Under the pieces are notes generated by a model that was not told where the DNA came from, ran no database searches, and saw only the letters and a list, made by a program, of their open reading frames with translations. This document shows positions 2,292 to 39,341 of a DNA stretch of 64,000 nucleotides, piece by piece (within the stretch, counting starts at the first letter, position 1; every line of letters begins with the position of its first letter). Source of the stretch: Vicinamibacteria bacterium (lineage in GTDB: Bacteria; Acidobacteriota; Vicinamibacteria; Fen-336); assembly GCA_035570235.1 (NCBI GenBank), contig DATMML010000120.1, positions 1 through 64,000 of the forward strand, written 5' to 3'. The position numbers and the translations under genes were made by a program.

Positions 2292-2687
2292 GTGGAGCCC
2301 ATCACTATCACGGTCGGCGGCGTGGTCGGCCTCGGGGCCCTAACGTTCGCGATCAACCAGGTCCGCAACCGCTCCTTCACGCATGAGGTCCCAGTCTTCC
2401 GCGCCTCGCGCTGGACGAAGGGCAATTGGGCATGGCCGACGCAGGTGGCGGTGTTCTCCAACCGGGTCGTGCGCTGGACGCCGCGGCTGTTCGGCCATTT
2501 TGAGGAGACCATCGCGACCGACCAAGTCGCCTCGGTGAGCGTGGACGCCGGCATCGTCTTCGGCGACGTGATTATCGAGACGACCGGGGGCTCGCAGCCC
2601 ATACGCTGCCATGGCCACCGTCGGCGCGACGCCGAGGAGATCCGCCGCCGGATCACCGAAGCCCAGGCTGGGCAGAGAAATCGCTAG
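2292..2687 (+). CDS. Small membrane-anchored bacterial PH-domain protein
   Basis: About 131 residues. An N-terminal hydrophobic helix (roughly residues 4-20, VGGVVGLGALTFAINQV) is followed by alternating beta strands, including VAVFSNRVVRWTP and an acidic/aromatic strand pair, and a basic C-terminal helix (RRRDAEEIRRRI). This is the layout of small bacterial PH-like (bPH/YdbS-type) proteins, whose role is generally unknown. The GTG at 2292 is preferred over the frame opening at 2274 because GGAGAG at 2282-2287 sits about 5 nt upstream. The gene stands alone: membrane-protein gene behind it and convergent metal-transport operon ahead. Function cannot be assigned. Confidence 0.7.
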   Translation: MEPITITVGGVVGLGALTFAINQVRNRSFTHEVPVFRASRWTKGNWAWPTQVAVFSNRVVRWTPRLFGHFEETIATDQVASVSVDAGIVFGDVIIETTGGSQPIRCHGHRRRDAEEIRRRITEAQAGQRNR

Positions 2688-38912: not shown

Positions 38913-38941
38913 TTGACAAGGGGCCCCTTGAGGAATACTGT
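38913..38941 (+). promoter_or_regulatory. Sigma-70 promoter of the polycysteine mini-gene
   Basis: -35 TTGACA (38913-38918), 17-nt spacer, -10 TACTGT (38936-38941): a perfect -35 and a good -10. Predicted start is near 38948-38950, only 3-5 nt before the first ATG at 38953, so the mRNA has almost no leader. Confidence 0.8.
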
Positions 38942-38952
38942 ACTCTTTAGTC

Positions 38953-39051
38953 ATGATGATCGCATCCCACTCCGGTTGGCTCGGCGCCCGCGACTGTTGT
39001 TGTCGCCTGTGGCTCAGGGCCATCGGTGTGACCGGGGAACGGCGCAACTAG
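38953..39051 (+). CDS. 32-residue polycysteine leader-type peptide
   Basis: The ORF begins MMIASHSGWLGARD, then three consecutive Cys (TGT TGT TGT, residues 15-17, 38995-39003), then RLWLRAIG and a charged end. There is no Shine-Dalgarno and the predicted 5' end is only a few nt before the ATG, so translation is probably leaderless. A stem (39022-39037 with 39061-39072; arms ATCGGT and CCGGGG with a 4-nt bulge) and a rho-independent terminator follow. This is the build of cysteine-responsive attenuator peptides described in mycobacteria. Unlike those, no cysteine or sulfur gene follows, only a tRNA gene. Confidence 0.6.
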   Translation: MMIASHSGWLGARDCCCRLWLRAIGVTGERRN

Positions 39052-39078
39052 CTCATAACACCCCGGACCGATCCGCAG

Positions 39079-39108
39079 GCCCTTCGAGTCAGCCTCGAAG
39101 GGCTTTTT
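39079..39108 (+). terminator. Rho-independent terminator
   Basis: A perfect 10-bp stem (GCCCTTCGAG / CTCGAAGGGC) with a 5-nt loop is followed by TTTTT (39104-39108). It ends a transcript of about 160 nt started at the 38913-38941 promoter. It is the clearest intrinsic terminator in the window. Confidence 0.9.
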
Positions 39109-39264
39109 CATTCTGGGCCGTTTGGCGAGGCCCGAGGAGGTGCGCCAGGGAAGAGACAAGTGGACAGAGCATTCAAGGAGGCCGATCCGTGCGGCGGACG
39201 GCCTCCATTTTCCTTCCCGTTCGGCTTCCTTCCGCCGTTGGGCTGCGTGCTACTATTCCGATAC

Positions 39265-39341
39265 GCGCCCGTAGCTCAATCGGATAGAGCGCTTGGCTTC
39301 GAACCAAGAGGTACCGTGTTCGAATCACGGCGGGCGCGCCA
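39265..39341 (+). tRNA. tRNA-Arg (anticodon TCG)
   Basis: 77 nt with encoded CCA (39339-39341). The acceptor stem GCGCCCG pairs with CGGGCGC; the D arm contains GCTC/GAGC, and the anticodon stem CTTGG/CCAAG carries loop CTTCGAA with anticodon TCG (reads CGA). The T arm is CCGTG TTCGAAT CACGG. A TACTAT hexamer about 10 nt upstream is a probable -10. No integrase or att repeat is seen beside it. Confidence 0.96.

Follow-up and report, generated by a model that had tools for sequence, protein, structure and literature searches.

Ribosome-mediated attenuators are known as cis switches that stand before genes of the amino acid sensed. In mycobacteria, leaderless polycysteine ORFs are described as cysteine-responsive attenuators before operons (Canestrari et al. 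2020, as cited in PMC9031893 and PMC9094748). By these accounts, the mycobacterial elements are leaderless short ORFs with consecutive Cys codons and their own promoter, at which ribosomes are proposed to slow when cysteine is low, and in all these respects they resemble the locus reported here. They precede sulfur operons, however, and are described as regulating downstream translation, whereas the ORF of our locus is followed by an intrinsic terminator and by no gene, and belongs to a different phylum. Leaderless leader peptides with Rho-independent terminators have been described for leuL and trpL of Streptomyces lividans (PMC8079986). These actinobacterial leaders share with our locus the leaderless leader ORF, the hairpin with a U run and the proposed mode of action, ribosome-mediated transcription attenuation, but they precede amino-acid biosynthesis, transport or aminoacyl-tRNA synthetase genes and are neither cysteine leaders nor orphans. 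In Sinorhizobium meliloti, the rnTrpL RNA (peptide peTrpL; PMC7298713) has its 5′ end at the ATG of the leader ORF and is released by termination, an arrangement close to the one predicted here; it differs in being still in cis to trpE, in its amino acid (Trp), in a trans function established by experiment, and in having no conserved read-through block of noncoding sequence. For Acidobacteria, leaderless genes have been predicted (PMC3160421), but according to a 2010 survey almost none of the attenuators predicted in this group has an assigned function (PMC2965389). Among the titles and abstract openings listed by a literature search of incomplete coverage, there was neither an orphan polycysteine attenuator nor a cysteine attenuator of Acidobacteriota.

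The window, that is, the whole stretch of DNA that was analysed (64,000 nt of a Vicinamibacteria genome, phylum Acidobacteriota; G000:C120:1-64000), contains on its plus strand a promoter match at 38913–38941, consisting of TTGACA (38913–38918), a 17-nt spacer and TACTGT (38936–38941). It is followed by a near-leaderless ORF of 32 aa at 38953–39051 (MMIASHSGWLGARDCCCRLWLRAIGVTGERRN, then a stop codon), in which three consecutive cysteine codons, TGT TGT TGT, are read in frame at 38995–39003. An intrinsic terminator at 39077–39108 comprises the hairpin AGGCCCTTCGAG-TCAGC-CTCGAAGGGCTT (39077–39105), whose 10-bp core is perfectly paired, and T5 at 39104–39108. Each of these features had been listed in a preliminary description of the locus, and each was found in the sequence as listed there. 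The ATG sits 11 nt past the −10 and the predicted start site leaves a 5′ UTR of about 3–5 nt, making "leaderless" an approximate term. The promoter was not listed by a simple promoter scan, TACTGT falling below its threshold. The window has a single case of TTGACA combined with a start codon 33–42 nt on and a closed 15–50 aa ORF containing CC, a combination that none of 60 first-order Markov shuffles of the window reproduced; the element is single-copy in its 5.7-Mb genome. Two checks that the preliminary description had proposed were run: the RNA from 38945 to 39112 folds more stably than shuffles (z = −2.7), and an Rfam search gave the element itself no match at gathering score, only a tRNA being found and nothing of note at E values up to 10.

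Judged by sequence comparison, the fact that two other genera keep the arrangement as a whole is a stronger test than these shuffle odds. The genomes searched included 13 others of the window's family and 16 of its order. Direct DNA and peptide searches for the element found almost nothing, and orthologues were therefore located by synteny with the conserved divergent neighbour, a thiolase (acetyl-CoA acetyltransferase; Pfam PF00108/PF02803; 37267–38538, minus strand) whose orthologues were fetched. At the corresponding position, in divergent orientation to the thiolase, the element is present in G002 and G010, which represent other genera, and the comparison rests on these two genomes and G000, the genome of the window. 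The G010 copy reads TTGACA-17-TAGGCT, 7 nt and GTG (peptide VTSALHCRRASACGCCMCARAAGVPEAIG), and the G002 copy TTGACA-17-GATCAT, 6 nt and GTG (peptide VTGFASAGVVSMCACCMCARATGLPEDVG), so that the start codon lies 6–7 nt from the −10 in these genomes versus 11 nt in the window. The distance from the start codon to CC is exactly 42 nt in all three, which places the TGT TGT pair after codon 14 each time, and every length difference between the ORFs is a whole number of codons. The Cys cluster is CCC in the window and CACCMC and CGCCMC in the two orthologues; the window copy lacks their flanking Cys codons and is three codons longer. TGTTGT, AGGGCC and the GGCCCTTCGA terminator are kept in the three orthologues and the N-terminal residues vary; the whole leader can be aligned between genera, beyond the Cys codons alone. 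The thiolases of the three genera are about 77% identical, and the DNA flanking the element does not align. Relatives whose otherwise intact locus had lost either the ORF or its Cys codons were to count against the preliminary description; the reverse was seen, with both kept in G002 and G010. Upstream of the thiolase the element is absent from seven other relatives in which the region is complete (G005, G008, G011, G013, G014, G015 and G030).

None of the three loci has a sulfur-metabolism gene immediately behind the element in its orientation. In the window, the first gene in that orientation comes 213 nt past the leader stop codon and is a tRNA-Arg(TCG) at 39265–39341 with a −10 of its own (TGCTACTAT; 39251–39341 with the tRNA, plus strand), which we judged to be outside the element. 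In G002 a 177-aa ORF with no Pfam match is directly downstream and the tRNA comes after it. The tRNA is absent from the 6.6-kb contig of G010, where the next co-directional gene, presumably murB-like from its sequence, is about 650 nt away behind an opposite-strand gene. Because no downstream gene is common to the three loci and the tRNA-Arg has its own −10 and is not syntenic, the element is, by this comparison, an orphan in each of the three genera, all soil Acidobacteriota, and its orphan status is real and conserved. The preliminary description was thus right in calling it an orphan; its suggestion of an attenuator cut off from its operon is weakened by the orphan layout shared among three genera and by the conserved block after the terminator.

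A pattern search of the same genome and its relatives, with matches filtered for reading frame, gave a second leaderless leader in G000 (G000:C53, L205/L232). It consists of TTGACA-17-TATCTC, 5 nt, GTG GTG AAG AGC ATG CGC GGC GCG TGT TGT TGT and then a GC terminator, and its peptide begins VVKSMRGACCCRARV. TTGACA promoter, leaderless CCC ORF and GC-rich terminator are all shared with the window element; the difference is that a gene with PAPS reductase, ATP sulfurylase and APS kinase domains by Pfam (cysH-sat-cysC) comes directly after. The same polycysteine-leader arrangement precedes cysH in G002, G003, G008 and G010. Since cysH leaders were found in G000, G002 and G010, every orphan-bearing genome also has a regular cysteine attenuator. 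The window element would work like the known attenuators described above but lacks one of the defining features of the polycysteine class, the sulfur gene in cis. With orthologues that keep the ORF and the Cys codons, and a textbook sulfur-operon version in G000, the comparative evidence is strong that the element is a leaderless polycysteine attenuator, as the preliminary description had proposed, and a conserved orphan.

Conservation extends for about 100 nt past the terminator in the three genera. This block (39111–39206, plus strand), proposed to be a read-through RNA, contains a small GC hairpin, an invariant GGAGGTGCGC at 39136–39145, and a second hairpin, B, at 39178–39206, followed by ATTTTCC. 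The UGCGG loop of hairpin B is invariant and its stem is altered on both sides between genomes; over the whole block structure 6 pairs are changed on both sides, and the covariation score was reached by 4 of 500 shuffles. The T run after hairpin B is short, leaving the 3′ end of the read-through RNA uncertain. A covariance model of the block made convincing matches only in the three orphan genomes. On inspection, the six best other matches proved to be GC hairpins that lie at the ends of genes or within coding sequence, and the block as an independent RNA elsewhere was rejected. Reading the frames in the three genomes gave no credible ORF in the block. A candidate second small ORF (GTG/ATG/TTG after a purine run, ...PCGGRP...) was discarded: in the window its frame stays open as far as the tRNA, and in G002 and G010 it runs into unrelated sequence.

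What has to be explained, then, is the promoter match, the ORF and the terminator, their conservation in three genera, the conserved block, the lack of a common downstream gene, and the same device on sulfur genes of G000. We lean towards a transcription attenuator that responds to cysteine through the ribosome and forms a short transcription unit by itself, with a read-through product that is most likely a non-coding 3′ extension; translation, stalling, antitermination and a function of the read-through RNA are the steps we infer. RNA polymerase would start at about 38948–38950 and a ribosome would initiate at the nearly 5′-terminal ATG. With ample Cys-tRNA, the ribosome would pass TGT TGT TGT and reach the stop codon, AGGGCC (39016–39021) would be held in the leader fold, and the terminator at 39077–39105 would form, ending an RNA of about 160 nt. 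When Cys-tRNA is scarce, the ribosome would stall on the Cys codons, AGGGCC would pair with GGCCCT of the terminator arm, and the polymerase would read on across the roughly 100 conserved nt up to and including hairpin B. What is regulated would then most likely be this non-coding 3′ extension, a cysteine-starvation small RNA, and not a protein or a tRNA. Translation of a very short peptide rich in cysteine appears to be the means by which the RNA senses this amino acid, and the regulated output of the RNA may be non-coding; a cysteine-controlled small RNA seems the most economical reading of that output because a conserved noncoding block lies behind the terminator. More tentatively, with somewhat less than even confidence, we propose a stand-alone switch in which stalling on the Cys codons would decide whether the conserved noncoding 3′ domain is made, giving a starvation-induced RNA with no gene in cis. 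A conserved attenuator whose only conserved output is noncoding would, if true, mean that translation-sensing can make a regulatory RNA directly.

The switch itself was modelled by folding the transcript up to the 5′ arm of the terminator with the ribosome footprint blocked out. The proposed antiterminator strand is AGGGCC, complementary to GGCCCT of that arm and identical in all three genomes. When the ribosome sat on the Cys codons, the probability of AGGGCC:GGCCCU pairing was 0.97 in G000, 0.74–0.77 in G002 and 0.98–1.0 in G010; with the ribosome at the stop codon it was 0, 0 and 0.71, and with no ribosome 0.06, 0.17 and 1.0, respectively. When the ribosome was scanned along the ORF, arm pairing dropped just past the second Cys codon in all three genomes. 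The 6-bp AGGGCC complementarity is no longer than in shuffles in G000 and G002, and the difference between stalled and stop-codon states was reached by 4.5%, 8% and 13% of shuffles in the three genomes; among 43 leaders of the class, complementarity was only slightly above that of shuffles. In equilibrium folds that include the complete terminator, this hairpin prevails every time in G000 and G002, so that any switch would need to act kinetically. In G010 the antiterminator is predicted to form even without a ribosome. Antitermination in the orphan is likely because of the analogy with the sulfur-gene leaders, and folding supports it modestly.

Among the alternatives, the strongest places the function in the terminated RNA of about 160 nt or in the leader peptide, which would act in trans like rnTrpL/peTrpL, read-through being incidental. 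The possibility of aligning the whole leader between genera, beyond the Cys codons, speaks for this reading, as do a promoter and terminator of its own with no gene in cis, and there is the precedent of rnTrpL, which starts at the trpL ATG and acts in trans (PMC7298713). A conserved, covarying block after the terminator is not needed by it, though, and apart from the Cys cluster the N-terminal part of the peptide is not conserved. We regard a product acting in trans as rather unlikely. That the element is a decaying attenuator, left after a sulfur operon was moved or lost, is less probable again, and we consider it doubtful: three genera with thiolases about 77% identical keep the frame, the Cys codons, the terminator and the block between flanks that do not align, and each of the three genomes has, in addition, a cysH attenuator that looks functional. 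To the credit of decay, orphans and cysH leaders have a common layout, in which the terminator is followed by a GC hairpin and a GGAGG-type purine run, and the window copy is the one that lacks flanking Cys codons and has three codons more. A gene for a small cysteine-rich protein, for instance a metal-binding one, translated from a leaderless mRNA would fit CxCCxC in G002 and G010, but the window copy has CCC only, N- and C-terminal residues vary freely, and AGGGCC, the terminator and the block that follows are as conserved as the codons, which makes such a protein very improbable. Read-through control of the tRNA-Arg, another idea of the preliminary description, is hardly credible even though this tRNA is the next co-directional gene in the window and a polycysteine leader directly precedes a tRNA-Cys in G123: the amino acid is Arg, the tRNA has its own −10, stands behind another ORF in G002 and is missing from the G010 contig, the same tRNA is preceded by a similar TGCTAnnnT in relatives that lack the element, and hairpin B stands between leader and tRNA.

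Polycysteine leaders were surveyed in 192 genomes of the class with the pattern TTGAC-N27-40-RTG-N3-33-TGTTGTTGT. Apparent repeats and gene interiors were left out by eye, and 58 listed matches were taken to an in-frame test; 52 passed as in-frame leaderless polycysteine leaders, mostly before sulfur genes. The downstream genes of about 30 loci, including G000 cysH, were scanned with Pfam; for the other loci, the assignment was made only from the similarity of the first residues. The scan gave the PAPS reductase family at 8 loci besides G000, the sulfite exporter TauE at 4, the PALP/cysteine synthase family at 3, CysG-like proteins at 3, PF03601 at 2, redoxin at 2, TonB receptors at 2, porin O/P at 1 and a dicarboxylate-type symporter at 1; at four survey loci the first downstream frame had no Pfam match. 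Cys codons in the polycysteine leaders of the class are TGT in 204 cases and TGC in 66, compared with 2 TGT and 22 TGC in the five genes around the window element. Among the matches listed from the 192 genomes, no other orphan of the window's type was seen. From this survey, leaderless polycysteine attenuators with intrinsic terminators seem to control much of the sulfur assimilation of Vicinamibacteria, apparently shown here for the first time as far as our incomplete literature coverage goes; the strategy is that known from mycobacteria, in a distant phylum.

Several individual loci of the survey deserve mention. One of the four with no Pfam match (L297, G123:C118) has a leader at about 2737–2813 (VTVIVNRACCCC...) and a GC terminator, directly after which comes tRNA-Cys(GCA) (2294–2369, minus strand), an order that suggests that cysteine attenuation acts on the very tRNA by which the sensing codons are read; the related G124 (L299) has the same leader without the tRNA. 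Divergent pairs of polycysteine leaders with promoters back to back occur at G059:C18:40601-40726 (L303/L304) and G147:C102:16244-16412 (L313/L314), one side leading to a PAPS reductase gene (L304; L314 by resemblance) and the other to a TonB receptor or a TauE-family exporter. TonB-dependent receptors stand behind the leaders L303 (G059) and L308 (G137), and an SDF-family symporter behind L300 (G128); these are candidates for uptake of cysteine or sulfur compounds. In L277 (G043) and L293 (G092) the leader is followed by a short, unannotated frame with a helix-turn-helix-like sequence (FGVTRERARQW and FGVSRERARQW); the frames tested had no Pfam match, and their product is possibly a regulator of the cysteine regulon.

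With a covariance model built on the orphan, leaders rich in other amino acids, with terminators, were also matched in other families of the class; the weak matches L217, L220 and L221, genic in appearance, were set aside. These leaders, leaderless or near-leaderless, are a Trp leader with YWWWY (L215, G037:C10:90565-90763), a His leader with RQRHHHTHH (L216, G172:C35) and a Phe leader (L219, G064:C635). Leaderless attenuation seems to be general in the class Vicinamibacteria.
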